Part shown: piece after piece, positions 36,004 to 63,597 of the stretch
How positions within the stretch are numbered: position 1 is the first letter of the stretch
Layout of the letters: the number at the start of each line of letters is the position of its first letter
Source: Stenotrophomonas indicatrix
GTDB taxonomy: Bacteria > Pseudomonadota > Gammaproteobacteria > Xanthomonadales > Xanthomonadaceae
Assembly (NCBI RefSeq): GCF_002750975.1
Contig: NZ_PEJS01000001.1
Location: 930,001-994,000 of the forward strand
DNA: 64,000 nucleotides
Reading direction: 5' to 3'
Notes under the pieces: model-generated
What the model was told of the DNA's origin: nothing
The model's input: the letters and a program-made list of their open reading frames with translations, nothing else
The model's database searches: none
Position numbers and translations under genes: made by a program

Positions 36004-36012
36004 GGGGGCAGA

Positions 36013-38699: not shown

Positions 38700-38843
38700 T
38701 CAGTTGGACCGCTGAGTCTGAGGGTCGCGGCGGTGAGGGGGACGTAAAGTTCCGCCTTTATTGCTTATGTATGCGAGCAGCACAGCGATGCTGCCACGAG
38801 GGCGGCTGCTCCCGCCGCTCCAAGAATCTGGAGGGATGTAGAT

Positions 38844-39467: not shown

Positions 39468-39575
39468 TTGGTTGCGGCGAATGTGTTCATTTTCCCTGCC
39501 GCTCGCTACCCAACAGTGTGCTAGTTATGGCGCCTGCAATACTTCCCAGGCATAGCGCCTGATCAACCGTGGCAA

Positions 39576-49302: not shown

Positions 49303-50196
49303 TCAACGTAGGGTATTGCCCGCGGCGGTACGCAGCGCGTGGGTGATGTGTTGCAACGTGCTCGAACGCACGGCGGCATGCTGCCAGAACAAGGGTACGT
49401 CGAGCCAGCGACGCGGTTCCAGCACCACTATCTGTCCGGCCTCTGCCGCTGGCGTGACCAGGGCCTCCGGTGCCAGGCACCAGCCAAGCCCACGCGCGGC
49501 AGCATCGACGAAGCCGGTGGAGGAGGGCAGGTAGTGTACGGGCGGTTGCATTCGCGCGCGGGTGAGCCTGCGCAGGAAACGCCATTGCAGTTCATCCTTG
49601 CGGTTGAACACGATCATCGGCGCCGAGGCCAATGCTTCGGCCTGCATGCCCGCGCTGAAGTGGCGGCGCGCAAATGCCGGTGAGGCGATGGCGCGGTAGC
49701 GCATCGCGCCCAGCGAATGCACGTTGCAGCCCTTCAGCGGCCTGCGTTCGGCGGTGACCGCGCCAAGCACGCTGCCAGTGCGCAGCAGTTCCAGGGTGTG
49801 GTCCTGGTCGTCCATGCGCAGGTCGAACAGGTAGCCGTGGCGCTGGTGCAGCTCGGCGATGGCGGCGACGAACCAGGTGTCCAGCGAATCGTCGTTGACC
49901 GCCAGCGGAATCGGCGTACGGGTGGCATCGCTGCCGCGTTCCGGCAGCAGTTCGGCAAGCGCTTCAGCCTGCAGTGCCTGCATCGGCCGCACCCGCCGCA
50001 GCAGCACTTCGCCGGCAGCGGTAGGCCGGCACGGGGCCTGGCGCACCACCAGCACCTGGCCCAGCCGGTCCTCAAGCGCCTTGATCCGTTGCGACAACGC
50101 CGACGGGCTGATCGACAGGCGGCGTGCGGCGGCCTCGAAGCTGCCTTCTTCGAGCACGGCGGTGAAGGCGCTCAACTGCGGATGTACCAGGTCCAC
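49303..50196 (-). CDS. argP: LysR-type regulator ArgP
   Basis: This 297-residue LysR regulator starts at GTG 50196 (VDLVHPQLSAFTAVLEEGSF). The winged helix contains AAARRLSISPSALSQRIKAL. The effector domain has NRKDELQWRFLRRLTRARMQ and the STGFVDAAARGLGWCLAPEA block, both typical of ArgP (IciA), the lysine/arginine-responsive activator of argO. It is divergent from an argO-like exporter gene, the standard arrangement, so function is well supported by context. Confidence 0.92.
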   Translation of the reverse strand: MDLVHPQLSAFTAVLEEGSFEAAARRLSISPSALSQRIKALEDRLGQVLVVRQAPCRPTAAGEVLLRRVRPMQALQAEALAELLPERGSDATRTPIPLAVNDDSLDTWFVAAIAELHQRHGYLFDLRMDDQDHTLELLRTGSVLGAVTAERRPLKGCNVHSLGAMRYRAIASPAFARRHFSAGMQAEALASAPMIVFNRKDELQWRFLRRLTRARMQPPVHYLPSSTGFVDAAARGLGWCLAPEALVTPAAEAGQIVVLEPRRWLDVPLFWQHAAVRSSTLQHITHALRTAAGNTLR

Positions 50197-50300
50197 GCGG
50201 TGCCTCTTCAGTTTTTCTGCACAGGATAAAGAAAAACCAGCTGGCCTTAACGAGCCCGTTGGTCGCACCCTGCGCCTCTTTTCAAGGTGGAGAGCGTCGG
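50197..50300. promoter_or_regulatory. argP-argO divergent control region
   Basis: This 104-base spacer holds the promoters of both divergent genes and, by family knowledge, the ArgP binding site that recruits RNA polymerase to argO. An AT-richer segment (cagtttttctgcacaggataaagaaaaacc, about 50210-50239) is visible and is partly dyad-symmetric (gtttttct / agaaaaac). Confidence 0.55.
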
Positions 50301-50915
50301 ATGTGGATTGCTGCGGCATTGGCCGGCCTGTTTTCAGGTGCCGGCCTGATCATCGCCATCGGCGCGCAGAACGCCTTCGTGCTGCGGCAGGGGCTGCAGC
50401 GCCGCTACGTGGGCATGGTGGTGCTGGCCTGCATGGGCGCGGACATCGCGCTGATCCTGGCCGGGGTGGGCGGCATGGGGGCGCTGGTGCTGCAGTGGCC
50501 GTTGCTGTTGCAGGTGCTGCGCTTCGGCGGGGCCGCTTTCCTGCTGTGCTATGGGCTGCAGGCCGGGCTGCGCGCGTGGCGCGGTGGCAGCGCGCTGGCC
50601 GCGGCCGATGCCAGTGGTGGCAGCCGGCGGCAGGTGCTGCTGGCCTGCCTGGCGTTCACCCTGCTCAACCCGCACGTGTACCTGGATACGATGGTGCTGC
50701 TGGGCAGCCTGTCCACGCGCTACCCGGGTGACCTGCGTTGGGTGTTCGCAGCGGGCGCCTGCGTGGCCAGCGTGCTCTGGTTCTGCGGGCTGGGGTTCGG
50801 CGCTCGGTTGCTGCAGCCGGTGTTCCGCAACGCGGCAGCATGGCGGTTGCTGGATGCTGGCGTGGCGGCCTTCATGCTGTGCCTTGCGCTGCTGTTGCTG
50901 CTGCGCCCGCTCTAG
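50301..50915 (+). CDS. argO: LysE/ArgO family amino-acid exporter
   Basis: This 204-residue, six-span LysE-superfamily exporter has the family start (ALAGLFSGAGLIIAIGAQNA) including the AIGAQNAFVLRQG motif, and LLACLAFTLLNPHVYLDTMV in the centre. ArgO exports arginine (and canavanine) under control of ArgP with arginine or lysine as effectors. Divergent from argP. It converges on map, with stop codons overlapping (50912-50915). Confidence 0.92.
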   Translation: MWIAAALAGLFSGAGLIIAIGAQNAFVLRQGLQRRYVGMVVLACMGADIALILAGVGGMGALVLQWPLLLQVLRFGGAAFLLCYGLQAGLRAWRGGSALAAADASGGSRRQVLLACLAFTLLNPHVYLDTMVLLGSLSTRYPGDLRWVFAAGACVASVLWFCGLGFGARLLQPVFRNAAAWRLLDAGVAAFMLCLALLLLLRPL

Positions 50916-51700
50916 GCCGCATCCACCGCGCACAACGGGGTTTCACCAGGGCGCAGGGTCAGCACGCGCACGCCGTTGCCGGTTACTGCCACCGTGTGCT
51001 CGAACTGCGCCGACAGCTTGCCGTCGCGGGTGTACACCGGCCATTCGTCCGGCTGCTGGCGGATCGCCGGCTTGCCCTGGTTGAGCATCGGCTCGATGGT
51101 GAACACCATGCCTTCCTCCAGCTCCATGCCGGTGCCGGCATGGCCGTAATGCAGGATCTGCGGTTCCTCGTGCATCTCCTGGCCGATACCGTGGCCGCAG
51201 TACTCCTTGACCACGCTGTAGCCGTGGCTGCGGGCGTGGCGGGCGATGGCGTGGCCGATATCGCCCAGGCGCGCGCCGGGCCGCACGGCGGCGATGCCTT
51301 TCCACATCGCCTGGTAGGTCACCTGCACCAGCTTGCGGGCGGCGTAGTCGGCATCACCCACAACATACGTGGTGCTGGAATCGGCAATGTAGCCGTTCTT
51401 CTCCAGCGTGATGTCGAGGTTGACGATCTGGCCATTGCGCAGCACGTCATCGGCCGACGGCATGCCGTGGCAGATGACGTTGTCGATCGAGGCATTGAGC
51501 ACGTACGGGAACCCGTACTGCCCTTTGCTGGCGGGCCGTGCCTGCAGCTCGTCGACGATCATGCGTTCGACGATGTCGTTGATCTCCAGCGTGCTGCGGC
51601 CCTGCAGCGGCAGCGCGTCGAGCATGGCGAAGACCTGCGCCAGCAGTCGCCCGGACTCGGCCAGGCGGTCGATCTCGTCGGGGCGCTTGATCATGGCCAT
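50912..51700 (-). CDS. map: type I methionine aminopeptidase
   Basis: This 262-residue enzyme removes the initiator Met using two metal ions. Ligand motifs are visible: the D-x(10)-D pair in NLDITLEKNGYIADSSTTY, GHGIGQEMHEEP (His) and FTIEPMLNQG (Glu), and the final Glu in QFEHTVAVT. Conserved ASIDNVICHGMPS is present. ATG 51700 is chosen; 51694 is an alternative. It lies five bases behind a ParD-like gene, so both are probably one transcript under the same operator. Not next to rpsB, unlike the classical map locus, so it may be a second map copy. Confidence 0.93.
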   Translation of the reverse strand: MAMIKRPDEIDRLAESGRLLAQVFAMLDALPLQGRSTLEINDIVERMIVDELQARPASKGQYGFPYVLNASIDNVICHGMPSADDVLRNGQIVNLDITLEKNGYIADSSTTYVVGDADYAARKLVQVTYQAMWKGIAAVRPGARLGDIGHAIARHARSHGYSVVKEYCGHGIGQEMHEEPQILHYGHAGTGMELEEGMVFTIEPMLNQGKPAIRQQPDEWPVYTRDGKLSAQFEHTVAVTGNGVRVLTLRPGETPLCAVDAA

Positions 51701-51704
51701 TGGC

Positions 51705-51917
51705 TCAGGCCCGCCCGGGGGCAAGCAGCTGCGGCTGCACACCGGCGGCGCGCAGTTCACTGGCGACGACGTCCTGGAAGCTCAGGGTCGGGTTCATCTC
51801 GCACAGCATGCCGACCCGGATCCAGAACGTGGCCTGGGCGTTGATCGAGCGGTTGGAGACGGTGCAGGCACGGCGCAGCTGGTCGTGCAGGGTGTCATCG
51901 ATGTTGACGATGCCCAT
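51705..51917 (-). CDS. ParD-like small DNA-binding protein
   Basis: This 70-residue protein has an N-terminal ribbon-helix-helix-like segment (IVNIDDTLHDQLRRACTVSN then RSINAQATFWIRVG) like the ParD_like family. ParD antitoxins autoregulate their operons. Here there is no ParE toxin; the partner gene is map, a combination I have seen described for this family. Upstream are direct repeats that fit an autoregulatory operator. Its role in control of map or of a toxin elsewhere is inference. Confidence 0.75.
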   Translation of the reverse strand: MGIVNIDDTLHDQLRRACTVSNRSINAQATFWIRVGMLCEMNPTLSFQDVVASELRAAGVQPQLLAPGRA

Positions 51918-51941
51918 GGGCGTTCTCGATTGGGAATATAT

Positions 51942-51962
51942 GAAGCGTATACGAAACGTATA
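51942..51962. promoter_or_regulatory. direct-repeat operator upstream of the ParD-like gene
   Basis: Two ten-base repeats, gaagcgtata (51942-51951) and gaaacgtata (51953-51962), differ at one position and are 11 bases apart, one helical turn. A perfect cgtatacg palindrome lies within (51946-51953). This layout is typical of ribbon-helix-helix autorepressor sites. The gene start is 25 bases away. Confidence 0.6.
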
Positions 51963-51984
51963 TTACCGCTCAAGCGCGTGGCAT

Positions 51985-52344
51985 TCAGCCAGCGTCGGTG
52001 GCGAAGCGCAGGCGGTTGCCATCCGGGTCGACGATCAGCATCTCGCGGCTTCCCCAGTCGGTATCGTGTGGCGGCTGCTCGATGGGTACTCCCGCAGCGC
52101 TGAACGCGCGGTGCAGGTCATCGACGTCGGTGACGATGAAATACACCGCACCGCCCACCTCGCAGTCGCCGGTGTGTTCGGTCAGGAAGATCGTCTGGCC
52201 TTCGCGGGTGAGCTGGGCGAACAGCGGGAAGCCGGGTTCGAAGCGGTGCTCCCAGTCGACGATGAAGCCCAGGCCCTGCACGTAGAAGGGCAGGCTGGTA
52301 TCGGCATGGCGCATGCGCAGCTGCGGGATGACGGTCTGGGGCAT
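51985..52344 (-). CDS. glyoxalase/bleomycin-resistance (VOC) family protein
   Basis: This 119-residue protein is a single vicinal-oxygen-chelate domain pair: MRHADTSLPFYVQGLGFIVD opens the first beta-alpha-beta module, and VGGAVYFIVTDVDDLHRAFS with IEQPPHDTDWGSREMLIVDP and DGNRLRFA closes the second. The conserved final Glu of metal-binding members is absent or shifted (R-x-R in NRLRFA), which favours a binding role (bleomycin-resistance type) over a dioxygenase. ATG 52344 is used. Upstream is a SMAG cluster. Confidence 0.8.
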   Translation of the reverse strand: MPQTVIPQLRMRHADTSLPFYVQGLGFIVDWEHRFEPGFPLFAQLTREGQTIFLTEHTGDCEVGGAVYFIVTDVDDLHRAFSAAGVPIEQPPHDTDWGSREMLIVDPDGNRLRFATDAG

Positions 52345-52373
52345 GGCGAGGGCTCCTGGGGCAGACGTCCAGT

Positions 52374-52526
52374 GTAGTGCCGGCCGCTGGCCGGCATCTT
52401 CGTGAGCCCGGGAACAATGAGGTTGCCGGCCAGCGGCCGGCACTACCGACTCTGCCTGGGTCTGGCAGGTGCCAACCTTGGTTGGCACATCGTGGTACAG
52501 CTACCGGCCAGCGGCCGGCACTACAG
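52374..52526. repeat. cluster of three to four SMAG/REP elements
   Basis: Units gtagtgccggccgctggccg… (52376-52396) and its reverse complement (52422-52446), a gtgccaaccttggttggcac hairpin (52470-52489) and a further ctaccggccagcggccggca… unit (52501-52525) occupy the spacer between the VOC gene and the arginase-like gene. Both the gccggc and the ccaac stem types occur together. Confidence 0.75.
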
Positions 52527-52533
52527 GGCGGGG

Positions 52534-53418
52534 TCAGCAGGCCGTCGGAACGGCGGCCATCGCCGCCAGCAGTTCGCGGTTCACCTGCTGGTGCTGCTGC
52601 TGCCAAGCCGGAAGATCATCGGCGCTGACGTCGGGCTGCCCATCCAGCGATGACAACCAGCGCTTGAAACGGCTCTGGTAGTTGGCAAGTGACACCTCGC
52701 CGGTGATGTCGCTGCCCACCAGTCCACCGGTGCGCAGGGCCTCGATCACCATCAGCGCGTGTTCAAGCTGGAAGCGGCCCTGGTCCCAGTTGCTGCGCGC
52801 GACATCTTCAGCGAACACGTCCTTGTCGATCGACAGGTAGGTCGGTTGAGGGGCCTGCGCCTGTTCGGCGGCGAACGCGGCGACCAGGGCCTCGGGATGG
52901 TCGAAGTGGCGGAAGGCAGCTGCCATGCCCACGCGGCTGGCCCAGCCCACATCCACATCCATGCACCAGTAGGTCAGCCGCCGCCCCAGCAGCGGCCGCC
53001 AGTGGTTCTCCCACGCATGGCCCAGGCCGATATCGGCGGAGGTGATGCCCAGCACATGCACATGCGATACCTGCGGCAATGCGGCGGCAGCATTGACCCA
53101 GGAACCGCAGTGCATGCCGAAGGGAAAGCGCATGTTGTCCGGATGGTTGTCCAGCACCACCAGCTGGAACGGGGCACGCGTGTGCAGGTGCTGCAGCAGC
53201 GGCAGGCTGAGATGGTGGAAGTCGCCGCTGCCGAGCATGACCGTGCCGAGCTGTGCCGGCAGCGGCCGAAGAACTTCAGTGGCGAAGCGTGACAGCGTGG
53301 CGTTGCGGCAGGCAAAGCGCAGCGGGTCATGCCAGTGCTGCAGCGCAAGCGTGCGTGCCTGTGGCAATGGCAGTACGCCACCATCGAGGTCGAGGATCAG
53401 CGGCGCACGCAGTTGCAT
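52534..53418 (-). CDS. arginase-fold (ureohydrolase-like) protein
   Basis: This 294-residue protein has the metal motifs of the arginase/agmatinase fold: SGDFHHLSL (D66, H68, H69), DNHPD at residues 90-94 in the place of DAHxD, and SIDKDVF with D198 and D200 in the place of SxDxD, then GSDITGE. Overall sequence otherwise differs strongly from true arginases. It probably hydrolyses or binds a guanidino/amidino or related amide, or a C-N bond in the operon's product. It is the last gene of the eight-gene minus-strand operon (52.5-59.6 kb). Confidence 0.75.
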   Translation of the reverse strand: MQLRAPLILDLDGGVLPLPQARTLALQHWHDPLRFACRNATLSRFATEVLRPLPAQLGTVMLGSGDFHHLSLPLLQHLHTRAPFQLVVLDNHPDNMRFPFGMHCGSWVNAAAALPQVSHVHVLGITSADIGLGHAWENHWRPLLGRRLTYWCMDVDVGWASRVGMAAAFRHFDHPEALVAAFAAEQAQAPQPTYLSIDKDVFAEDVARSNWDQGRFQLEHALMVIEALRTGGLVGSDITGEVSLANYQSRFKRWLSSLDGQPDVSADDLPAWQQQHQQVNRELLAAMAAVPTAC

Positions 53419-53421
53419 CGG

Positions 53422-54486
53422 TCAGCCTCCTCCATCCGGCTCAGCCTGCAGGTGCGGGGCCAGCCTGCGCAGGACGGCGCGCAGCAGCGGCGAACGCGCA
53501 TGCACCGCGTGTACGGTGGAGGTGAAGCGGGCACCCAGTTCGGCCTTGATGCGTGAATCGGTCCAGCCGGCAACGTAGTGGCTGAGGCCGTGCTGCAACG
53601 CGTATTCCAGGTTGTGCATCCAGCTGACCGAGTACAGGTTGTGGTCGCGCGACTGCGGATAGGACAGGCCGATGTACTTGTCCACCAGCTTGCCGGCATG
53701 CACGTAGCACAGGTTCCAGCCGATCAGCTCGCCGTTGTGGCGGTAAAGGAACAAGCGCCCCTGTCCCTGCGTGTCTGCCAGCAGGTGCTGGAAGAAGGGT
53801 AGCTCGAGCCGGTCGAAATGCACGGCGCTCTGTGCATACACCTGCAGGTACAGCGCATGCAGTTCGGCCTGCAGCCGCGGTTCGGCAAGGGCAGGGTCAC
53901 CGGTGGCGATGCAGTCGATCTGCAGGTTGCTGCGTGAGCGCAGCTTGCGCCGGATGTTCTTGCGACGCGCTGCGGACAGGCGTGCCAGATAGGCGTCGAT
54001 TCCATCGAAATCGATCGCCACCCATGCCAGCGGCATGCCTTCCAGCGGGATGAAACCGCGTGCTTCCAGCGCCTGCAGGAAGGCATGGCTGTGTGCGTTG
54101 GCGGCATCGTCCAGCAAGGGCGAATCGATCGCCAGATCCTTGACCACCAGCAGCCGGCTGTCACCGACGCCATGGCGCAGCACGTCGTCGGCCAGTGCCG
54201 CCGCAGAAACATGCCCCGGCAGCGGCGTGTACTCGGTGCTGGTGGCACCGATGAACCGTGTCTGCCAGGTCAGCCAGGGCCGCCACAGGCGCGACAGCGG
54301 CAGCCCCAGCAGGCGCGAGCGCAGTGCATCGTCCAGGGTTGTGGTCAGATCCAATGGCGCACGGAAACTGGGCAGGCCGCTGGGCAGGCGGCTGGCATCG
54401 AACCCCAGGGGCGGGTGGGCCAGGAAGCCCTCCAGCAGCGCGGCCGGTTCCAGCGCGGTGCTGGATACACGCGGGATCACGTCCAT
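53422..54486 (-). CDS. GNAT/FemAB-like acyltransferase
   Basis: This 354-residue protein has a C-terminal GNAT-type region of the BioF2/FemAB-like group: LSAARRKNIRRKLRSR (basic helix), then RLELPFFQHLLADTQGQGRL, YRHNGELIGWNLCYVHAGKL and DHNLYSVSWMHNLEYALQHG. Such domains transfer an acyl or aminoacyl group to an amino group. ATG 54486 is preferred to GTG 54495. The N-terminal third is not recognised. It is the seventh gene of the operon, three bases ahead of the arginase-like gene. Confidence 0.65.
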   Translation of the reverse strand: MDVIPRVSSTALEPAALLEGFLAHPPLGFDASRLPSGLPSFRAPLDLTTTLDDALRSRLLGLPLSRLWRPWLTWQTRFIGATSTEYTPLPGHVSAAALADDVLRHGVGDSRLLVVKDLAIDSPLLDDAANAHSHAFLQALEARGFIPLEGMPLAWVAIDFDGIDAYLARLSAARRKNIRRKLRSRSNLQIDCIATGDPALAEPRLQAELHALYLQVYAQSAVHFDRLELPFFQHLLADTQGQGRLFLYRHNGELIGWNLCYVHAGKLVDKYIGLSYPQSRDHNLYSVSWMHNLEYALQHGLSHYVAGWTDSRIKAELGARFTSTVHAVHARSPLLRAVLRRLAPHLQAEPDGGG

Positions 54487-54518
54487 GCGGGGCACGGGAA
54501 CCGACAGCGCATTCCCGC

Positions 54519-55919
54519 TCAGCCCTTGGCCTTGGTCAGCAGCTGGTCCAGCAGGGTGATCGCCAGGTCGATCTCTTCGTAGCTGATGTTCAACGAGGGC
54601 GCGAAGGTGATCACGTTCTTGTACCAGCCACCCACATCGAGCACGAGGCCCATGCGCTTGCCGTCGTGCAGCAGGTCGCCGGCCAGGCCGATGTCGACCA
54701 TGCGGTCCAGCAGTTCACGGTTCGGGGTGAAGCCATCGGCAGCGCAGATTTCCGCACGCAGTGCCAGGCCGAGGCCATCGACATCGCCGATTTCCGGATG
54801 GCGCTTCTGCAGGCCGCGCAGGCCGTCGAGGAAGTAGGCGCCCTTCTCCGGCACGGTGCGCTCGTAGTCCATCTCCTTGCCCAGCTTCAGCACTTCCAGG
54901 CCCAGGCGCGTGCCCAGCGGATTGGAGTTGAAGGTGGAATGGGTGGAGCCCGGCGGGAACACGGTCGGGTTGATCAGCTCTTCGCGCGCCCACAGGCCCG
55001 ACAACGGGTTGAGGCCATTGGTCAGCGCCTTGCCGAACACCAGCACGTCCGGGGTGACATCGAAGTGTTCGATGGCCCACAGCTTGCCGGTGCGCCAGAA
55101 GCCCATCTGGATCTCATCGACGACCATCAGGATGCCGTACTTGTCCAGCACGCGCTTGAGGCCCTTGAAGAAGTTGCGCGGCGGAATGACGTAGCCGCCG
55201 GTGCCCTGGATCGGCTCGACGTAGAACGCGGCGTACTCGGCCTGGCCGACCTTGGGATCCCACACGCCGTTGTACTCGCTTTCGAACAGGCGCTCGAACT
55301 GGTGCACGCAGTGGTCGGAGTACTCGTCCGGGGTCATGCCCTTCGGGCGACGGAACGGATACGGGAACGGGATGAACATCGCGCGTTCGCCGAAATGGCC
55401 GTAGCGGCGGCGGTAGCGGTAGCTGGAGGTGATCGACGAGGCGCCGAGGGTGCGGCCGTGGTAGCCGCCTTCAAACGCGAACATCAGGCTCTTGCCGTTG
55501 CGCGCGTTGCGGACGATCTTCAGCGAATCCTCCACCGCCTGCGCACCACCCACGTTGAAGTGCACGCGGCCGTCGAGGCCGAACTTCTCGTGCATGTCCA
55601 CCGCGATGGTCTTGGCCAGCTGCACGCGCGTCGGGTGCAGATACTGGCTGGCGACCTGCGGCAGGGTATCGATCTGGTCCTTCAGCGCATTGTTCAGGCG
55701 CTGGTTGGCGTAACCGAAGTTGCACGCCGAATACCACATCTGCAGATCGAGGTACGGGGTGCCGGCGGCATCGAACATGTAGCTGCCTTCGCAGCGCTGG
55801 AAGATCTTCGGCGGATCAACGTAGTGCACGGTGTCGCCGAAGGAGCTGTAGCGTGCTTCGTCTGCCAGCAGCTGTGCATCGGTGATGGCGGCATCGGCGT
55901 TCTTGTCAAAAATATTCAT
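54519..55919 (-). CDS. class III PLP-dependent aminotransferase
   Basis: This 466-residue, fold-type I aminotransferase of class III has GGAQAVEDSLKIVRNARNGK (PLP phosphate site), FEGGYHGRTLGASSITSSYR, the Asp of MVVDEIQMGFWRTG (D268) that pairs with the PLP nitrogen, and the Schiff-base Lys in VFGKALTNGLNP (K297). Class III enzymes transfer omega-amino groups (for example from ornithine, GABA or diamines). ATG 55919 (MNIFDKNADAAIT) is the natural start. It is the sixth gene of the operon, between a HAD phosphatase and an acyltransferase. Confidence 0.88.
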   Translation of the reverse strand: MNIFDKNADAAITDAQLLADEARYSSFGDTVHYVDPPKIFQRCEGSYMFDAAGTPYLDLQMWYSACNFGYANQRLNNALKDQIDTLPQVASQYLHPTRVQLAKTIAVDMHEKFGLDGRVHFNVGGAQAVEDSLKIVRNARNGKSLMFAFEGGYHGRTLGASSITSSYRYRRRYGHFGERAMFIPFPYPFRRPKGMTPDEYSDHCVHQFERLFESEYNGVWDPKVGQAEYAAFYVEPIQGTGGYVIPPRNFFKGLKRVLDKYGILMVVDEIQMGFWRTGKLWAIEHFDVTPDVLVFGKALTNGLNPLSGLWAREELINPTVFPPGSTHSTFNSNPLGTRLGLEVLKLGKEMDYERTVPEKGAYFLDGLRGLQKRHPEIGDVDGLGLALRAEICAADGFTPNRELLDRMVDIGLAGDLLHDGKRMGLVLDVGGWYKNVITFAPSLNISYEEIDLAITLLDQLLTKAKG

Positions 55920-55967
55920 CGGTTCGATTCCGGAGAGGGCATTCAAAGGAAGCAACGGGCGGAGCGA

Positions 55968-56654
55968 TCAGGCGGTGGCGAGCAGCCGCGGAAGCGAGGG
56001 CTGAAGCAGGCTGCCGTCGAGAAGGCGCGGGAGCAGCGCAGTAGCGTCGTGGAAGGTGTCGATGGCGGCGTGGGGAATGCCGGCGTCGGTGCAATGGGCG
56101 ATCAGGCGACGCTTGGCGAACACGAAATCGGCGTGTTCGGACACGCAGAAATCGGAGGCGCCATCGCCGATCATCAGCACGCGGGGAGCTTCGTCAGCAC
56201 GCGCCTGCGCCGCGCAGGTGCACTTGCAGGTGCCGCTGCGGCAGCCTTCGGCCTGGTACGGAGATTCAAGCTGCCAATGGCCGTCAGACCAGCGCAGGTG
56301 GTTGGCCACCACAGGCAGCGGCGGCAGGCCGTGGTTGGCGAGGATGCGATGGATTGCGTAGTCCAGGCCGTCGCTGACGATGCGCAGTGGCAGGCCCAAC
56401 GCCTGCGCGCGATTGACGAAGGCGGCGAAGCCCGGATCGATCCGTACCTGGTCCAGGTGTGCATCGAGGGTGGCCGGATCCAGCTTCAGCAGGCGGACCT
56501 GGCCCTGCATGCATTCACGCGAACCGATCTCGCCCGAGCGCCACTGGTCTTCCAGCTGCTGCCAACCGGGCTGGCCGAAGTTTTCCAGCAGCGAATCGAT
56601 GACGTCCTCGAGGCTGATGGTGCCATCGAAGTCACACAGGATGCTCCATTGCAT
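55968..56654 (-). CDS. HAD-IB (MtnX-like) phosphatase
   Basis: This 228-residue HAD phosphatase has motif I CDFDGTISLED (nucleophile D8, acid D10), motif II near IVSDGLDYAI and motif IV MIGDGASDFCVSEHADFVFA. The overall layout matches the MtnX/phosphoserine-phosphatase-like HAD-IB group. An unusual Cys-rich insertion (CRSGTCKCTCAAQ) sits around residues 145-157 and might bind metal. It is likely to remove phosphate from an intermediate of the operon's pathway. Start at ATG 56654; the longer open frame is not supported. Confidence 0.8.
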   Translation of the reverse strand: MQWSILCDFDGTISLEDVIDSLLENFGQPGWQQLEDQWRSGEIGSRECMQGQVRLLKLDPATLDAHLDQVRIDPGFAAFVNRAQALGLPLRIVSDGLDYAIHRILANHGLPPLPVVANHLRWSDGHWQLESPYQAEGCRSGTCKCTCAAQARADEAPRVLMIGDGASDFCVSEHADFVFAKRRLIAHCTDAGIPHAAIDTFHDATALLPRLLDGSLLQPSLPRLLATA

Positions 56655-56816
56655 GGGCAGCTCCGTCGATGAAGAGAGGCCTTGGCACGATGCCGGCGAC
56701 GGGGTCAATGTAGGCAGGCCGTCTTTCTCGTTCCTTTCCACCTGAAAGCCCGAACGGAGGCACTCGGGAAGCGTTCAGCCAGTGAGCGCGAAGCAGGCTT
56801 TGCCCGGCTTCAGCCT
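56655..56816. other. 162-base spacer inside the operon
   Basis: This is the only sizeable gap in the eight-gene operon. No gene, hairpin terminator or clean promoter is evident, so an internal promoter for the three to four downstream genes is possible but not shown. Confidence 0.35.
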
Positions 56817-58019
56817 CTACTGGCCAGCCAGTACCTTCACGATCTCGCAGGCGTCTTCGTGGGTCAGCCAGGGGCTGTTGCCCACGGTCAGGGAGCGGGC
56901 GGCGAAGTCGCGGGCATTGGGTACGTCCGCGTCTGCGACGACGCCTCGCAGATAGGCATAGTCCGGCAGGGCGTGGATGAACATGCGGCTGACACCCAGG
57001 CCGCGCTGCCACAGCGATGAAAGCGCTTTGTCGCGTGCACGTTCGCTGGGCAGCAGCAGCATCAGCATCGGCCAGGTGCCAAGAGTGCCAGGCATCCCGT
57101 CCACCACTTCAACGGCAGGCAGCGATTCCAGCTGCACGCGCAGCTGCAGCGCGCGCAGGCGGGCGGCCTGCAGGAAGGCGGGCAGGCGCTGTGCAGCGTG
57201 CGCCCCGACGTTCTGCCGCCAGCGGCTGACGCGATGCTGCGGAATAGCCAACGGAAACACATCACCCACCGCAGCTTCCAGGTCGCCACGGCGCAGGGCA
57301 CGCCGCAGCGGATTTCCATACACCAACGACAGCAGGGAAGGGCGGTAGCAGGCCGCCAGGCCCAGCAGCTGCAGGCTGCGCCTCAGCTCCCAGCGCGGGT
57401 TGAAGGGCGTGTGTCCTGCGGCCTGCTCGATCAATGCCGCACGCAGTTCTTCATCACGTGTCAGCAGCAGGCCGCCCTCATGCAGGCTCAGGCCCTTGCC
57501 GGCGGCCAGGCTGAAGAAGCCGATGTCGCCGCGCAGGCCGACGCTGTTGCCGGCCACGCGTGCACCCAGTGCCTGTGCAGCGTCCTCGATCACCCACGCA
57601 CCGACGCGGTGCGCAATGGCACATGCGCGATCAACATCGGCGATGCGCCCGCCCAGATGCGTGGGCACGATCGCCAGCGTGCGTGCATCGGCTGCGGCGT
57701 GCAGCGCCACCGGGTCGAAATCGAAATGGTCGCGGCGGGTATCGCACAGGTGTATGCGCAGGCCGAGGCTGTGCACGGCAATCGGTACCAGCGGACAGGT
57801 ATAGGCCGGCAGGATCACGGTATCGCGCTGCGGCGCGCGCCTGCGCAGGGTGCGCAGGGCAATCAGCAGGGCATGGGTGCCCGAGCAGGTCAGCTGCAGC
57901 GGCGGCGTGCCCAGCTGCCCGGCGAGAATCGTGCACAGGTCGCCGCCACCGGGAAGGAAATCGCTGGCCTGCAGGGGCAGGCCAGCGGTGGGAGGCAACT
58001 CGCGCGACAGCAGGCTCAC
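56817..58019 (-). CDS. DegT/DnrJ/EryC1-type aminotransferase
   Basis: This 400-residue PLP enzyme is of the sugar-aminotransferase superfamily: TCSGTHALLIALRTL (phosphate site), LPAYTCPLVPIAV, EDAAQALGARVAG with D146 and FFSLAAGKGLSLHEGGLL with the Schiff-base K175. Family members aminate keto sugars (ArnB, DesV) or cyclitols. Some are PLP-bound dehydratases, but the Lys is present here. Its stop overlaps the two-gene EamA-like unit by four bases (58016-58019), so coupling is tight. Substrate unknown. Confidence 0.82.
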   Translation of the reverse strand: MSLLSRELPPTAGLPLQASDFLPGGGDLCTILAGQLGTPPLQLTCSGTHALLIALRTLRRRAPQRDTVILPAYTCPLVPIAVHSLGLRIHLCDTRRDHFDFDPVALHAAADARTLAIVPTHLGGRIADVDRACAIAHRVGAWVIEDAAQALGARVAGNSVGLRGDIGFFSLAAGKGLSLHEGGLLLTRDEELRAALIEQAAGHTPFNPRWELRRSLQLLGLAACYRPSLLSLVYGNPLRRALRRGDLEAAVGDVFPLAIPQHRVSRWRQNVGAHAAQRLPAFLQAARLRALQLRVQLESLPAVEVVDGMPGTLGTWPMLMLLLPSERARDKALSSLWQRGLGVSRMFIHALPDYAYLRGVVADADVPNARDFAARSLTVGNSPWLTHEDACEIVKVLAGQ

Positions 58020-58414
58020 GGGGCTGCTTCGGTAACTGCATGCGGATCATCCGCCTCGGCACGGCCCAGGCAGATGATGCCGGCCACGATCAGCACCGCA
58101 CCGATCAGGTGATGCAGCGTCAACGGTTCGTGCAGCAGCCACGCCGACAGCAGCAGCACGCTGATCACTTCCAGGTGCGAGGCCGCGAACGCAGGGCCGA
58201 TCGGCGCGTGCCGCAGAAGGCTCATCCAGGTGAAGAACGCGCCGACGTAACCGAGCATCGCGCCGTATACCCAGGGCTGTGACAGCACGCGCAGAAGCCA
58301 TGCGCTGTTGGCCTCGACCGGCAGCGCGGCGTCGCCGGCGTACTTGAAGCACAGCTGGGCGAGGGTGTCGAAGGCCATCAGCAGCGGAAACCCGACCAGG
58401 TACAGCCGCCTCAT
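58016..58414 (-). CDS. half-size EamA/EmrE-like transporter, second subunit
   Basis: This 132-residue protein has four transmembrane helices (LVGFPLLMAFDTLAQLCF… through LHHLIGAVLIVAGIICLG) of the drug/metabolite-transporter type. A half-size pair like this resembles ArnE/ArnF, the undecaprenyl-phospho-aminoarabinose flippase subunits. The start overlaps the first subunit's stop by four bases, and the gene is followed at once by the DegT gene. The soluble C-terminal tail is acidic (EADDPHAVTEA). Confidence 0.78.
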   Translation of the reverse strand: MRRLYLVGFPLLMAFDTLAQLCFKYAGDAALPVEANSAWLLRVLSQPWVYGAMLGYVGAFFTWMSLLRHAPIGPAFAASHLEVISVLLLSAWLLHEPLTLHHLIGAVLIVAGIICLGRAEADDPHAVTEAAP

Positions 58415-58770
58415 GTTCCGGCTCCGACCACGGCAACGCCAGCGCTGACCAGCAGCATGCCGGTCACCCGCAACGGCGTCAGCCGCTCGCGGAACAGGAT
58501 GCGGCCGGCCACCATCAGCGCGACGATGTTGATCGAGCCGAGCAGCACGCCCTGTGACAACGGCACCAGCGACAGGAAAGCGATCCAGGCGACGAATTCG
58601 AGCACATAGCAGGCGATGCCCAGCCACAGCCAGGGACGGCCGAACATGTGTTTCCAGCGCTGCAGGCCTTCGCCATCCTGCGGGTCGCTGGCGGCAGCCT
58701 TGAAGGCCAACTGGCCGCCGGTATCGAGCACCACGTTGACCAGCCACAGCAGGGTCGCAAGCGATCCCAT
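58411..58770 (-). CDS. half-size EamA/EmrE-like transporter, first subunit
   Basis: This 119-residue protein starts at ATG 58770 (MGSLATLLWLVNVVLDTGGQ) and has four transmembrane helices in EmrE order. The loop PLSQGVLLGSINIVALMVAG and the closing helix VTGMLLVSAGVAVVGAG match the DMT/EamA family. Together with the next gene it makes a probable heterodimer. Start codon is one base past the hydrolase gene's stop. The pair's place inside a biosynthetic operon suggests it moves the product or a lipid-linked intermediate across the inner membrane. Confidence 0.75.
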   Translation of the reverse strand: MGSLATLLWLVNVVLDTGGQLAFKAAASDPQDGEGLQRWKHMFGRPWLWLGIACYVLEFVAWIAFLSLVPLSQGVLLGSINIVALMVAGRILFRERLTPLRVTGMLLVSAGVAVVGAGT

Positions 58771-58771
58771 C

Positions 58772-59608
58772 TCAGGCGACCGCCTGCAGCACGCCCGCAC
58801 GTTCGCCGATGTCGCTGAAGAAGCGCGCGCTGCGGCGGATCACCTCGCGCCGTTCGCGATCGATGGTGATCATGTGGTAACTGTCTTCCAGCACCACCAG
58901 TTCGGTCGGGCCGCTGACGCGCGAGATCACCAGTTCGGCATTGCCCATGCTGGCCACGTCGTCCTCGCGGGCATGCATCACCAGGCATGGTGCCGTGACC
59001 TGATGCAGGTGACGGCGCGTCCAGGTGCTCAGTGCACGCATTTCGGCCAAGGCATGCCACGGGTTGCCTGGCAGGCCGGCAGCGGCACTGTCACCAGAGA
59101 GCATGGCGGCGCTGACCTGCGCACGCAGGCGCTCGTCGCGCAGGCCGTACGGCGGCTCTTCCATGAACATGCGGTCGCGGCCGATGCCCAGGCGCTTGAA
59201 CCACGGCAGCAGGAACGAGAAGCGTGCGACCGCCGGAATGTTCCAGCCGTCGTAGCGGAAGGTGGCGCCGTACACCCCCACGCCGGAGACCCAGTCCGGC
59301 CGCCGCGCGGCCAGCGCCAGCGCCAGCACCGCCCCCATCGACAGCCCGCCGACGAACAGCTGGTCGACCTTGCCACGCAGGTCCGCCGCCGCGTCTTCCA
59401 CGCCCTGATACCACTGTTCCCAACGGGTCTGCAGCAGGTCCTCGACGCTGCCGCAGTGGCCGGGCAACTGCACGCCATGCACGCTGAAGCCCGCGTTGTT
59501 CAGCCCTTTGCCCAGCATGCGCATTTCGGCGGGCGTGCCGGTCAGGCCATGGATCAGCAGGACACCCTGCGGGCCACCGGGAAGAAAGAACTCATGGGAT
59601 GCAGGCAC
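58772..59608 (-). CDS. alpha/beta hydrolase (carboxylesterase/thioesterase-like)
   Basis: This 278-residue protein has the oxyanion loop VLLIHGLTGTPAEMR, nucleophile elbow GGLSMG (S90), an acid in HAREDDV and the base in LEDSYHMITIDRER. This is the EST30/YvaK-like monoacylglycerol-lipase or carboxylesterase pattern. It is the first gene of the eight-gene operon, and its stop lies one base before the first transporter's start. It could release or transfer an acyl group. A promoter should lie in 59609-59687, but none was clear. Confidence 0.85.
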   Translation of the reverse strand: MPASHEFFLPGGPQGVLLIHGLTGTPAEMRMLGKGLNNAGFSVHGVQLPGHCGSVEDLLQTRWEQWYQGVEDAAADLRGKVDQLFVGGLSMGAVLALALAARRPDWVSGVGVYGATFRYDGWNIPAVARFSFLLPWFKRLGIGRDRMFMEEPPYGLRDERLRAQVSAAMLSGDSAAAGLPGNPWHALAEMRALSTWTRRHLHQVTAPCLVMHAREDDVASMGNAELVISRVSGPTELVVLEDSYHMITIDRERREVIRRSARFFSDIGERAGVLQAVA

Positions 59609-59687
59609 CAGTCGGCTCCAGCGCGGCAGTCGGGAAGGTCAGCATCGCAAGCGCGATTTTCGGCAACCTTTCAACGGTCCGTCTGGA

Positions 59688-61067
59688 TCAAGGGCCCTTC
59701 AGCAACGGTATGGTGATGGACACCTTCAGGCCACCGCCGGGACGGTTGAGGTAGCCCAGGCGTCCGCCCAGGTGCTCGACGGCCTCATGGGCGATGGCCA
59801 GGCCCAGGCCGGTGCCGCTGGCTGCAGTGCCGGGCGCACGGAAGAAGCGCTCCCCCAGCCGCGACATCACGTCCTCGGGCACGCCCGGGCCATTGTCTTC
59901 GACGTACAGCTCGACATCGTTGTCGTCCAGGGCCTGCACGCCGACGGTGACGGTCGCCTCCGCGCCGGCGTAGCGCAGGGCGTTGTCGATAAGATTGTCC
60001 AGCGCCTCGTGCAGCAGTGCGCCGTTGCCCAGTATCCGCACCGGCTGCTGCGGACCCAGGTAGCCCAGGTCGATGCCATCGCGGATCGCTTCGGGCACGC
60101 GCATGCCCACCCATTGCGGCACCAGCTCGGACACATCCAGCGCCTCCACCGTCTCCGGCACGGTCTGTGCCCGGCTCAACGCCAGCAGCTGGGTGCTGAC
60201 GCGGGCGGTGCGCTGGTTGAGCCGGCGGATGTTCTGCAGCGCTTCACGCACGGTCTCTGGATCGCCGTGCGCCAGGGCTTGGTCCACGTGCAGTGCCATG
60301 CCCGCCAGCGGCGAGCGCAACTGGTGGGCGGCATCGGCAATGAAGCGGTTCTGCAGCGTGATCATTTCCGCCTGCCGCGCGAACAGGCCATCGATGGTGC
60401 TGATCAGGGGCTGGATTTCCTCGGGCACGTCGGCATCGGAAATCGGTGCCAGCTCGCCGCGGCGCTGGGCCAGGCGCGAGGTCAGCGGGGTCAGGATACG
60501 CAGGCCGTGGGTGACGCCGAACCAGACCAGCGCGGCCATTCCCAGCGCCAGCATGGCCATCAGCGGAATGACGATCATCAGGATTTCGCGCGCACGCTGG
60601 CGGCGGTCGGCCATGCTTTCGGCCACGGTCACCGCCAGCTGGTCCTGCGGATCGTTCATCGCCTGGGTGCAGACCGTCGACATGCGCACCTGCTGGCCGT
60701 TCAACTCGCCTTCGTACAGCGCCGGGTGCGTGCCGCTGCAGTCCTGCGAGGGCGCATAGGCGCTGAAATCTGCGTTGCCGGCGATGGTGCCCAAGCGGCT
60801 GCTGTCGACGTTGAAGTAGCGATGACCGTCGGGGTCGTACTCGATCAGAAAACGTGCCTGCGGAGACAGGTCGCTGCTGACCGGCATCGTGCTGAGCATC
60901 TGTGCGAACGACACGGTGTCATCGGTCAGGTTGCGGTCGTGGATGCGGTTGGAGTAGTCCAGCGCCACGTAGTAGGCCAGCAGCGTGTTGAAGGTCAGCA
61001 GGCCCAGCATCGGCAACGCCAGGAAGGCGAGCAGGCGCCGGCGCAGGCTGGGCGGTCCGCTGATCAC
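59688..61067 (-). CDS. sensor histidine kinase of a two-component system
   Basis: This 459-residue kinase has TM1 (LLAFLALPMLGLLTFNTLLA), a periplasmic sensor of about 130 residues with a Cys pair (QDCSGTH, VCTQAM), TM2 (ILMIVIPLMAMLALGMAALV), a HAMP-like linker, an H-box (RFIADAAHQLRSPLAGM, His near 247), and the ATPase boxes NLIDNALRY, EDNGPGVPEDV and GTGLGLAIAHEA. GTG 61067 overlaps the regulator's stop (GTGA), so the two are coupled. It resembles QseC/TctE-type kinases. The signal is unknown. Confidence 0.92.
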   Translation of the reverse strand: MISGPPSLRRRLLAFLALPMLGLLTFNTLLAYYVALDYSNRIHDRNLTDDTVSFAQMLSTMPVSSDLSPQARFLIEYDPDGHRYFNVDSSRLGTIAGNADFSAYAPSQDCSGTHPALYEGELNGQQVRMSTVCTQAMNDPQDQLAVTVAESMADRRQRAREILMIVIPLMAMLALGMAALVWFGVTHGLRILTPLTSRLAQRRGELAPISDADVPEEIQPLISTIDGLFARQAEMITLQNRFIADAAHQLRSPLAGMALHVDQALAHGDPETVREALQNIRRLNQRTARVSTQLLALSRAQTVPETVEALDVSELVPQWVGMRVPEAIRDGIDLGYLGPQQPVRILGNGALLHEALDNLIDNALRYAGAEATVTVGVQALDDNDVELYVEDNGPGVPEDVMSRLGERFFRAPGTAASGTGLGLAIAHEAVEHLGGRLGYLNRPGGGLKVSITIPLLKGP

Positions 61068-61735
61068 GCGCTGGCGTCTTCCAGCATGTAGCCCAGCCCG
61101 CGCACCGTGCGGATGCCCATGCCGCCCGGCTGCAGCTTGCGGCGCAGGCGGTGCAGGGCGATGTCCAGGCCGTTGTCGGTCAGGTCCTGGCCCCAGTCGC
61201 ACAGGGCCTCCACCAGCTGCGCGCGCGAGACGATGCGCTCGGCACGCACCGCCAGGGCGGACAGCAGGCCGAACTCGCGCGCGGTCAGTTCCAGCGTCTG
61301 CTCGTCTATCCACACCCGGTGGCCGGTCAGGTCCAGGCGCAGCCGGCCGATGCGCAGGTCGGGGTTGCCGTTGCTGGTGACCCGGCGCAACTGCGCGCGC
61401 ACGCGTGCTTCGAATTCGTCCAGGGCGAAGGGCTTGACCAGGTAGTCGTCGGCTCCCAGGTCGAGCACGCGCACGCGCTCGGCCAGGCCATCGCGTGCGG
61501 TGACCACCAGCACGGCCAGGCCATCGCCGCGCTGGCGCAACCGCTGCAGCACATCGCGGCCGTCCAGCTGGGGCAGGCCAAGGTCCAGCACCAGCAGCGC
61601 GTACTGGGTGGAGTTCAGGGCGGCATCGGCATGCGCGCCGTTGTCCACGTGGTCGACCACGTGGCCCTGCCGGCGCATCGAGGCGCACAGGCCAGAGGCG
61701 ATGTCCGGATCGTCTTCTGCGATGAGTACGCGCAT
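61064..61735 (-). CDS. OmpR/PhoB-family response regulator
   Basis: This 223-residue regulator has an acidic pocket (EDD 7-9), phospho-acceptor D51 in LLVLDLGLPQLDGR, signal residues VTARDG and K101 in DDYLVKPFALDEFE. A C-terminal winged helix (LELTAREFGLLSALAVRAER … NGLDIALHRLRRKL) follows. It is close to the QseB/TctD group. The gene starts at ATG 61735 (MRVLIAEDDPDIA) and is followed by its kinase with a four-base overlap. Confidence 0.94.
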   Translation of the reverse strand: MRVLIAEDDPDIASGLCASMRRQGHVVDHVDNGAHADAALNSTQYALLVLDLGLPQLDGRDVLQRLRQRGDGLAVLVVTARDGLAERVRVLDLGADDYLVKPFALDEFEARVRAQLRRVTSNGNPDLRIGRLRLDLTGHRVWIDEQTLELTAREFGLLSALAVRAERIVSRAQLVEALCDWGQDLTDNGLDIALHRLRRKLQPGGMGIRTVRGLGYMLEDASA

Positions 61736-61866
61736 GCGCGGGGCTCCTGGGGGCGGATGGGCCGCCCGCTGGACAGGGCGGGCCTCTCGGCTGCCGAGGG
61801 TAGCGGCAAACGGGGTGGAGGTGGCAGGCGTGGGGGGGCCAGGCGCACCCGGCGCTGGCCGTTCGT

Positions 61867-63000
61867 TCAGTCCTGCAGGCCAGGCTGGCCCTTGGCCAGC
61901 GGCACCCGCGATCCGTCCAGCAGGCCGCGGCTGAGCGTGCCGTCCTCGATGAACAGCAGTTCGCCGTTCTCGCCATTCTTGATGCTGCTGTCGATGGCAA
62001 TCACGCGGCCGTCGTGGAAGCTGCTGACGTGTGGCATCGAGGTGTGGCCGACCACGATGCGCTTGAGCTGGAGACGGTCGAGCACCGCCTGCACGCCCTG
62101 GCTGTCCAGGCGCCCGTCGAAGTAGCCGCGGTACCAGATTGGGCTGGTCTTGCCGTCGTACAACGGTGCGGTGGCGGGGTCTGCCTTCACCTCGGCCTTG
62201 GGAATGCCCAGCGAGGCCTGGTAGGCGGCATTGGTGTGGGCCGGGTCCAATGCCATCTGCACCGCGTCGGGCGAGATGCCGCCATGCAGGAACAGGGTAT
62301 CGCCGATCTGCAGCAGCACCGGCCGCGTGCGCAGCCACTGGCCGATCACCGAGTCGGCACCATACAGCTGCGGATAGCTGCGACCGAGCAGCTGCGCGCT
62401 GCGCAGGTATTTCGGATTGACGTAACGCAGGTCGTCGTACAGCACCATGGTCTCGTGGTTGCCGAGCACGAAATGCACCGCGCCACCGGCGGCGGCCGCC
62501 TGCTGCTGCAGGCCATACAGCAGCCAGAACGCTTCGGTCACCTGCGGGCCGCGATCGAACACGTCGCCGGCGATCACCAGCGTATCCGTGCCCAGTGCCC
62601 AGCGGTCCTGCGTGTCGATCACCCGGTTGGCGCGCAGCAGGCGGACCAGCAGCGCGTACTGGCCGTGGATGTCGGACACGGCGACGATGCGTGGCACGGC
62701 CGGCAGTATCGATGCCGACGGCGCGTTCGGCGGCAGCACATGCACCGCATGCGGGTAGCCGCAGCGCGCGGCAACCTCAGTGCCATCGGTGCCGGCCTGC
62801 ACGCTGTGGGTTTCCACCTGGTCCTGGCAGATCCACTGCGCTTTCAGCTGCGCGCCCTCACGGAACAGGTAAGGGCCGTCGCTGTCCACGTGCTCTGCAG
62901 GTGCTGCCACGTCGCGGGCAGAGGCCAGTGGTGCGGCCAGCAGCAGGACCAGTGGCAGCAGGATCGACAGGGTTCGGGCGTGGTTCGGCATCGGCGGCAT
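61867..63000 (-). CDS. secreted calcineurin-like (Shewanella-type) metallophosphatase
   Basis: This 377-residue protein has a signal peptide (RTLSILLPLVLLLAAPLASA). The dinuclear-metal motifs of the calcineurin-like phosphatases follow: VSDIHGQYALLVRLL, IAGDVFDRGPQVTE, VLGNHETMVLYDD and later LFLHGGIS and VVGHTSMPHV. Layout and GDVFDRG/GNHE match the Shewanella-like PPP phosphatase group, which acts on phosphoproteins or phosphoesters in the periplasm. A Cys pair (WICQD, ARCGY) lies in the extra N-terminal domain. Start at 63000 or ATG 62991. Confidence 0.88.
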   Translation of the reverse strand: MPPMPNHARTLSILLPLVLLLAAPLASARDVAAPAEHVDSDGPYLFREGAQLKAQWICQDQVETHSVQAGTDGTEVAARCGYPHAVHVLPPNAPSASILPAVPRIVAVSDIHGQYALLVRLLRANRVIDTQDRWALGTDTLVIAGDVFDRGPQVTEAFWLLYGLQQQAAAAGGAVHFVLGNHETMVLYDDLRYVNPKYLRSAQLLGRSYPQLYGADSVIGQWLRTRPVLLQIGDTLFLHGGISPDAVQMALDPAHTNAAYQASLGIPKAEVKADPATAPLYDGKTSPIWYRGYFDGRLDSQGVQAVLDRLQLKRIVVGHTSMPHVSSFHDGRVIAIDSSIKNGENGELLFIEDGTLSRGLLDGSRVPLAKGQPGLQD

Positions 63001-63065
63001 CCAGCGGCAGGAGACGAGCGATGCTAACCCCCCACGAACGCCACCGGTGTGCGCGAACGGGCGGA

Positions 63066-63515
63066 TCAGGCCCGGCCGCCTCCCCCCTTGAGCTTGCGCA
63101 CGCGGGTATCGGCGGGGCGCACGGGCTGGCCGTCACGGCCATGGGGTTGCATGTAGGGCAGTGGCCGGCGGCTGCTGGATTCGATCAGTTGCGAGTGCGC
63201 TTCGCCAGCAGCGAAGCAATGCCGTTCTCCCCATTGGCGCAGGGCCACCAGCAGCGGGAACAGGTCCTGGCCGGCCGCGGTCAGCACATAGTCGTGGTAG
63301 GCGCTGCCATCGGCGGCGGGCTGCTGCACCAGCAGCCCCGCCTCGACCAGGCGCCGCAGGCGGTCGCTGAGGATGTTGCGCGCCGCGCCCAGGCTGCGCT
63401 GGAAATCGCCAAAGCGACTGACGCCATCGAAGGCATCGCGGATGACCAGCAACGCCCAGCGGTCGCCGAGCAGATCGGCGCTGCGGGCCACGGGGCAGGG
63501 GCTGTTGGCGTGCAT
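63066..63515 (-). CDS. HxlR-family transcriptional regulator
   Basis: This 149-residue winged-helix regulator starts at ATG 63515 and has the HxlR pattern CPVARSADLLGDRWALLVIR, RFGDFQRSLGAARNILSDRL and YVLTAAGQDLFPLLVALRQW. The C-terminal tail is basic and Gly-rich. HxlR members often sense redox signals or aromatic compounds through a Cys; Cys7 lies just before the DNA-binding part. It is divergent from an MFS transporter gene with a large inverted repeat between, which fits local control. Confidence 0.9.
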   Translation of the reverse strand: MHANSPCPVARSADLLGDRWALLVIRDAFDGVSRFGDFQRSLGAARNILSDRLRRLVEAGLLVQQPAADGSAYHDYVLTAAGQDLFPLLVALRQWGERHCFAAGEAHSQLIESSSRRPLPYMQPHGRDGQPVRPADTRVRKLKGGGGRA

Positions 63516-63532
63516 GGCGGACTCCCTCGATT

Positions 63533-63590
63533 GTGGTTGCAGTTTAAAACTAGTGGCGCTACTGTGCACCTGGTTTCAAAATGCAACCAC
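63533..63590. promoter_or_regulatory. inverted-repeat operator of the HxlR/MFS divergent pair
   Basis: Two 18-base arms, gtggttgcagtttaaaac (63533-63550) and gtttcaaaatgcaaccac (63573-63590), are inverted with 16 of 18 matches and a 22-base spacer. They fill the divergent spacer between the regulator and transporter genes and sit where promoters must be. Very likely the HxlR binding site or paired sites. Confidence 0.75.
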
Positions 63591-63597
63591 ACTGATG

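Follow-up and report, generated by a model that had tools for sequence, protein, structure and literature searches.

A recurrent eight-gene block in Stenotrophomonas indicatrix as a possible signal-regulated pathway for an amide-linked amine product

Described bacterial systems provide parallels for parts of the locus considered here. DevBCA exporters move glycolipids. Nod factors are made and released by an acyl module (NodFE), an N-acyltransferase (NodA) and an exporter (NodIJ). The RtxA or serinol route is described as proceeding through amination of dihydroxyacetone phosphate and then dephosphorylation, giving an amino alcohol (PMC3222319). The present window is a 64,000-nucleotide stretch of the 4.56 Mb genome of Stenotrophomonas indicatrix (contig NZ_PEJS01000001.1, C1:930001-994000), and it contains eight adjoining genes, called A to H here, that combine features of several such systems. 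Together with a two-component system directly upstream and an exporter encoded elsewhere in the genome, the block may constitute a signal-regulated pathway for the synthesis and export of an amide-linked amine product, a reading to which we give about an even chance. That the block is one functional unit can be said with high confidence, and its product is probably an acylated or aminoacylated amino compound.

All eight open reading frames (ORFs) are present in the reading-frame list of the window, on the minus strand and where a preliminary description of this DNA had placed them (Table 1). Each of the proteins exceeds the curated Pfam cut-off for its family, upholding the labels first given (a hydrolase, an EamA pair, two types of pyridoxal phosphate (PLP) enzyme, a HAD phosphatase, an acyltransferase and an arginase fold), and the residues singled out there (K175, K297, D8, S90, DNHPD and SIDKD) were all verified in the translations. 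The intergenic distances are 1 base (A–B), −4 (B–C), −4 (C–D), 162 (D–E), 48 (E–F), 23 (F–G) and 3 (G–H), with C overlapping B and D by 4 bases each and the F–G distance becoming 32 if G starts at its ATG rather than its GTG. The genes had been described as overlapping or separated by tiny gaps apart from a single one of 162 bases; that single gap is correct, but the 48 bases between E and F are not tiny. In NCBIfam, only sub-cut-off matches were found for A–D and F among the matches listed, E reaches the MtnX-like subfamily, and G and H have no match. The same-strand two-component genes upstream extend the block past 52534..59608.

Table 1. Features of the block, its upstream regulators and the unlinked exporter (window positions unless marked L114; aa, amino acids)
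Feature	Position	Strand	Details
Gene A, alpha/beta hydrolase	58772..59608	-	278 aa; Ser nucleophile S90 in GGLSMGA; Pfam Hydrolase_4 77.7 bits, cut-off 27
Gene B, EamA half-transporter 1	58411..58770	-	119 aa; Pfam EamA 32.0 bits, cut-off 28.2
Gene C, EamA half-transporter 2	58016..58414	-	132 aa, ATG start; Pfam EamA 42.1 bits
Gene D, DegT/DnrJ/EryC1-type PLP enzyme	56817..58019	-	400 aa; K175 in AAGKG; Pfam DegT 145.5 bits
Gene E, HAD-IB phosphatase, MtnX-like subfamily	55968..56654	-	228 aa; D8 (ATG start at 56654); TIGR01489 99.0 bits, cut-off 81.55
Gene F, class III PLP enzyme	54519..55919	-	466 aa; K297 in VFGKALT; Pfam Aminotran_3 244 bits
Gene G, FemAB-like tandem GNAT	53422..54486	-	354 aa from ATG 54486 (357 from GTG 54495); Pfam FemAB_like/Acetyltransf_6
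Gene H, ureohydrolase (arginase/agmatinase fold)	52534..53418	-	294 aa; DNHPD at 90, SIDKD at 196; Pfam Arginase
Histidine kinase, 2CSK_N sensor domain	59688..60998	-	79 bases upstream of gene A; Pfam 2CSK_N, HisKA, HATPase_c
OmpR-family response regulator, closest to PmrA	61064..61738	-	PmrA model 225 bits, cut-off 330
Unlinked DevBCA-like exporter of the window genome	L114:6811-9597		About 253 kb from block

The block recurs well beyond its own species. Relatives were sampled as the best 80 of 181 loci encoding a G relative, one genome per species, a sample biased to near relatives of the window; their ORFs were chosen with a codon-position filter, and gene presence was scored by bit-score thresholds of our own within the DNA fetched, in which some contigs end inside the block. 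In these 80 loci G was found 80 times, H 79, E and F 69 each, B, C and D 68 each, and A 67. The eight genes were found again in Xanthomonadales, Novimethylophilus, Rhodocyclaceae, Paracidovorax and Pseudomonas luteola/asuensis loci. Recurrence in distant genera had been named at the outset as support for a single pathway, and it is what we see, with the distant sets rearranged and kept in part. The order of the window (regulator, kinase, A to H) is kept in 19 of the 80 loci, all of the S. maltophilia type, while in most of the others E-F and G-H stand opposed to D-C-B-A, with genes for an acyl carrier protein (ACP) and a ketosynthase (KS) between F and G. Six full-length loci (L062, L063, L081, L095, L107 and L108) have none of A–D within the 21 kb fetched, and L060 has neither H nor D within the DNA fetched. 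The closest relatives of G (80-86% identity) come from Stenotrophomonas maltophilia-group records and from one labelled Bacillus subtilis (L045); the latter carries all eight genes of a Stenotrophomonas-type block at 71-93% identity and is probably a mislabelled or contaminated assembly. A short glyoxalase-like gene (recognized by eye, with no NCBIfam match) lies downstream of H on the same strand at window 51985-52344 and is matched in 17 of the 80 relatives, all of the S. maltophilia type.

Across the phylum the block is sparse, and F is its best-conserved gene. Of 398 genomes, 11 have a relative of G with at least 49% identity (61 have any match at E 0.001). Relatives of F occur in 25 of the 398 at E 1e-150 or better (56-100% identity, and 56-96% in the 24 besides the window's own), including all 11 G-positive genomes. 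The type II loci L147 and L148 each have E, F, A, G and H plus a pair of small EamA-type genes; for L147, B and C as queries both match a single member of the pair, and its partner was recognized by eye. A third type II locus, L190, has E, F, A and G, with B, C and H unmatched in 19 kb. D is unmatched in all three of these loci and has been seen only in type I blocks. In the low-GC loci L183, L184 and L189 the order is KS-E-F-A, with an ACP gene ahead of the KS (by Pfam for L184, in which about 1 kb separates E from F, and by eye for the other two), L188 has KS-E-F-A, and L182, L185 and L187 have E-F-A with the KS unmatched within the stretch fetched. In L181 the exporter accompanies F, C, B, A and E, with G, H, D, ACP and KS unmatched, and a match to G is absent from the whole of its genome (G153). 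E-F-A is thus the smallest set common to block types I, II and III, and it is not linked in every locus; G, H, D, ACP/KS and the exporter vary between types.

Two further loci lie at the edge of this distribution. In L186 (8911-11231), F is the only block gene matched in 19 kb; it is a distant relative (56% identity) and is directly followed by a Sulfotransfer_3 gene, possibly representing a further lineage of F chemistry. In L156 (9064-10993), a weak G relative adjoins two small EamA-type genes, with an argD-like gene nearby, a hint of FemAB-like/EamA pairing outside this block.

A dedicated exporter accompanies the block in many relatives. Of the 80 loci, 40 encode its membrane fusion protein (adaptor), 38 its ATPase, 36 its permease and 34 a NodT-like outer-membrane channel, positioned beyond A or, in L107 and L108, beyond E-F. 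The only set tested against curated models, that of L060, falls below every cut-off (DevC 71 bits versus 290, DevA 217 versus 296, DevB 48 versus 129), and its channel scores 196.3 bits on the NodT-type model TIGR01845, just under the cut-off of 210.05; the components are therefore named DevBCA-like and NodT-like. The window genome has a permease of this kind at C1:1242810, with ATPase and adaptor genes adjoining and no NodT-type channel seen beside it. In a midpoint-rooted FastTree of 33 permeases this copy nests in a mostly block-linked clade, adjoining the Paracidovorax permease of L105 and those of L149 and L150. About 2 kb upstream of the exporter in the window genome is a gene for a geranylgeranyl-reductase-family flavoprotein (L114:3271-4560), a possible further partner of the pathway.

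The unlinked exporter is tied to the block by co-occurrence, assessed throughout in a single set of 151 genomes from the order, with the permease counted at 50% identity or more and the KS at E 1e-120 or better. H occurs in 28 genomes and F in 29; both are present in 27, H alone in 1, F alone in 2 and neither in 121. The DevC-like permease occurs in 24 (at E 0.001 some match is found in 59 genomes, of which the remaining 35 do not exceed 39% identity), always together with H or F: both are present in 24 genomes, H or F without permease in 6, permease alone in 0 and neither in 121. The KS behaves likewise, occurring in 21 genomes (both 21, H or F only 9, KS only 0, neither 121). Set against H alone, the permease gives 23 genomes with both, 5 with H only, 1 with permease only and 122 with neither (Fisher 2.6e-21, a p value that ignores common descent). 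Within the window's genus, the permease is present in five of the five genomes with H and in none of the five without it, and all five copies lie more than 200 kb from the block or on another contig. This match within one genus between unlinked genes partly answers the objection of shared ancestry. The proposal that the product is moved across the inner membrane, which followed from the EamA pair, is supported and is extended toward the outer membrane by the co-occurring DevBCA/NodT-like exporter.

The ACP and KS form an optional module, found in 54 and 55 of the 80 loci, respectively. The KS is FabF-like, with the Cys motif and both His motifs present in the sequences that were read. Three loci from Pseudomonas luteola/asuensis and Paracidovorax (L104-L106) have the exporter without ACP or KS. 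The window genome has no ortholog of the relatives' KS at the threshold used, its best matches reaching 40, 38, 36 and 39% identity, and the same lack of an ortholog is found in all five block-carrying genomes of its genus. In a tree, 27 block KS sequences group apart from the three window-genome KS included. Read by eye, the window-genome matches other than the one at 36% are a FabF gene with acpP and fabG-like neighbors and a pair of KS from what looks like a cluster of the xanthomonadin/aryl-polyene type, noted as a feature of its own (L115, C1:4020000-4036000).

Regulatory genes adjoin blocks of more than one type. The kinase upstream of A scores best on the QseC model (180 bits versus a cut-off of 475) and reaches 115 bits on PmrB (cut-off 314); the neighboring response regulator is nearest to PmrA (Table 1). 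By our thresholds the kinase is matched in 44 of the 80 relatives and the response regulator in 26. L147 and L148 have a sigma-54-type response regulator next to block genes, L185 has one next to A-F-E, and in L191/L152 one separates E-F from the other genes. The presence of different regulator classes near type I and type II blocks suggests that an external signal controls the pathway. Scans for promoters (0 versus 0.9 expected) and terminators (4 versus 3.7 expected) did no better than shuffles, and Rfam gave 0 matches at the gathering score in window 50000-64000.

Several of the enzymes depart from described relatives. In the class III aminotransferases AcOAT, GABA-AT and OAT, the Glu of QGEGG and the Arg of xIRxxPP switch between glutamate and substrate. 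F belongs to class III by its Pfam score and by K297, invariant in 20 of 20 rows, but it lacks this pair: QGTGG and NVIT stand where Glu and Arg are usual. Each of the two columns has Thr (T240, T438), in all of a set of 20 rows and in 98% or more of the 88 distinct rows covering them. Its PDB relatives 7vno and 9wqz have Glu or Asp, and Arg, at those columns. E lies under both mtnX equivalog cut-offs (94.3 versus 303.2 and 108 versus 292 bits), so that an assignment as the methionine-salvage phosphatase MtnX was set aside in favor of the MtnX-like subfamily. A is proposed to be a thioesterase or deacylase. H has a predicted amidinohydrolase fold with the binuclear-metal ligand motifs kept; its top VIA match, which ties with agmatinase and others, is the proclavaminate amidinohydrolase of an antibiotic producer.

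G is the proposed amide-forming enzyme. Its predicted model has a tandem GNAT fold, nearest to Sba18/Sbb17, MprF and FemX at 8-17% identity, and the lipid-aminoacylating MprF equals FemX in closeness of fold. A profile search of PDB sequences with G detected no relative, its 4 matches having E values of 0.7 or worse, and the predicted model is therefore the basis for the fold assignment. K314 of G, invariant in 40 of 40 rows, is a candidate counterpart of FemX Lys305 and DhpH-C Lys329, lysines for which a role is described in PMC12945691. The fold search weakened the case for G as a Nod/OlsB-type acyl-ACP N-acyltransferase, which is still a possible assignment.

From gene content, recurrence, co-occurrence, motifs and predicted folds, we infer the chemical steps, their order, the donor and the product as follows. 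E-F-A would be the core, and tailoring would fall to G, H, D and ACP/KS as modules. F may aminate a carbonyl intermediate bearing a phosphate or a carrier-protein arm, E would take off a phosphate, and A could cleave a thioester or ester, releasing or editing an intermediate. H would turn a guanidino or amidino group into a free amine on which G makes an amide, using either an aminoacyl-tRNA, the donor favored by the nearest folds, or an acyl-ACP. D might contribute a second amine in type I blocks. In many relatives the dedicated ACP and KS would supply the acyl part, while the S. maltophilia-type block, lacking both, would use housekeeping acyl-ACP. The product may then be carried across the inner membrane by a B/C heterodimer and taken outward by the DevBCA-like pump and NodT-like channel.

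The two PLP enzymes, the tandem-GNAT fold and the ACP/KS of relatives support an amine-bearing product that is probably acylated or aminoacylated, as the preliminary description had in part proposed; the lipid link that it suggested is a possibility. A more specific version of the pathway for an amide-linked amine product is that the block makes undescribed envelope amino-lipids or lipid-like natural products, in which an ACP/KS chain is aminated by F and E, coupled by G to a tRNA-derived amino acid, unmasked by H, and exported by the split EamA flippase and the DevBCA/NodT-like pump under an envelope-sensing two-component system. We regard this version as unlikely as it stands; if true, it would add a third route, beside Arn and MprF, to positive charge at the outer surface. 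The variability of G, H, D, ACP/KS and the exporter makes it unlikely that every lineage ends with the same product.

The alternative that survives best is that the same chemistry yields a diffusible natural product (a toxin-like amine, a signal or an antibiotic) that leaves by the ABC/NodT-like pump instead of serving as a membrane lipid. The block is patchily distributed inside a genus, relatives have a dedicated efflux-type channel, the folds nearest to G include Sba18/Sbb17, which act on streptothrisamine, and the tied best match of H comes from an antibiotic producer. The eight genes nonetheless include no nonribosomal peptide synthetase or large polyketide synthase gene, MprF is as near to G as FemX is, and the models nearest the pump, DevA, DevB and DevC, are named for heterocyst export. 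A diffusible product is a possibility to be kept in mind, at clearly less than an even chance.

The preliminary description had likened B and C to ArnE/ArnF and D to ArnB, and a DegT enzyme, a small ArnE/F-like EamA pair and a PmrA-like regulator do stand in one place. On that account the product of D would be an amino sugar, presented by a B/C flippase for the decoration of lipid A or other surface structures. D reaches only 72.1 bits on the ArnB model against a cut-off of 631, however, and B (ArnE 31.6, ArnF 25.2 bits) and C (34.3, 30.0) are far below the cut-offs of 92 and 99. No glycosyltransferase, formyltransferase, decarboxylase or ArnT-type gene is among the eight, nor is an undecaprenyl-phosphate glycosyltransferase or ArnA/ArnD/ArnT, the rest of the genome not having been searched for these. 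L147 and L148 keep EamA genes where D is unmatched, and neither ACP nor KS is known to take part in Arn. Membership in Arn was rejected because the models are under cut-off and genes are missing; the likeness is one of analogy, and an Arn-like role is very improbable.

An operon for the breakdown or salvage of polyamines or guanidino amines, in which H cuts guanidine, F and D deaminate, and E and A clear phosphates or esters, would suit the amidinohydrolase fold of H and the GABA or putrescine class III aminotransferase models among the matches of F. Breakdown is a poor fit, though, for transporters of exporter type, for a G with a transferase fold and for the ACP/KS of relatives; F lacks the Glu/Arg pair and no dehydrogenase is among the eight, so that we find such an operon hard to credit. 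That unrelated genes are held together by chance or a shared promoter, as the varying order and orientation among block types and the loci missing part of the set might hint, is scarcely believable given a set rearranged yet largely retained across classes and its strict co-occurrence even when unlinked. Apart from these alternatives, a defense system was rejected, with no PADLOC match at E 0.001 for A, D, E, F, G or H (B and C were not included). Elsewhere in the window, positions 34001-40000 have a GC content of 0.54-0.57 and strong GC skew in surroundings of roughly 0.63-0.69, suggesting foreign or mobile DNA.

No account of the gene set or its regulator was found among the papers listed in searches of the open-licence full-text literature, a coverage that mostly leaves out subscription journals, and the novelty of the pathway is accordingly provisional. 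It appears to be an undescribed and probably signal-regulated pathway present in several lineages of proteobacteria, among them the opportunist Stenotrophomonas maltophilia and soil bacteria such as Rhodanobacter. The comparison across genomes links partner genes (ACP, KS, exporter and regulators) that annotation of a single genome would leave unconnected.

The signal-regulated pathway proposed here touches known systems at several points. With the RtxA/serinol route, as described in PMC3222319, it would share an aminotransferase (F) and a dephosphorylation step (E). With Arn under PmrAB it has in common the DegT enzyme, the split EamA pair and the PmrA-like regulator; it differs in that the rest of Arn is not among the eight genes, which instead include E, F, A, G and H, with ACP/KS in relatives. 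The predicted fold and metal-ligand set of H are those of the ureohydrolases agmatinase, guanidinopropionase and proclavaminate amidinohydrolase, but identity is below 20% among the matches listed, NCBIfam has no match, and H has its own motifs DNHPD, CGSW and NWDQG. G, as modeled, has the tandem GNAT fold of the FemABX and other tRNA-dependent enzymes, from which it is set apart by its low identity and the lack of a PDB sequence relative by profile. The exporter resembles DevBCA in being a three-part ABC exporter nearest the DevA and DevC models and in having an adaptor with a match to DevB as well; it differs in that the L060 set is under all three curated cut-offs. Finally, by analogy, the combination of an optional ACP and KS module, a putative amide-forming transferase and an ABC exporter would follow the logic of Nod-factor synthesis.

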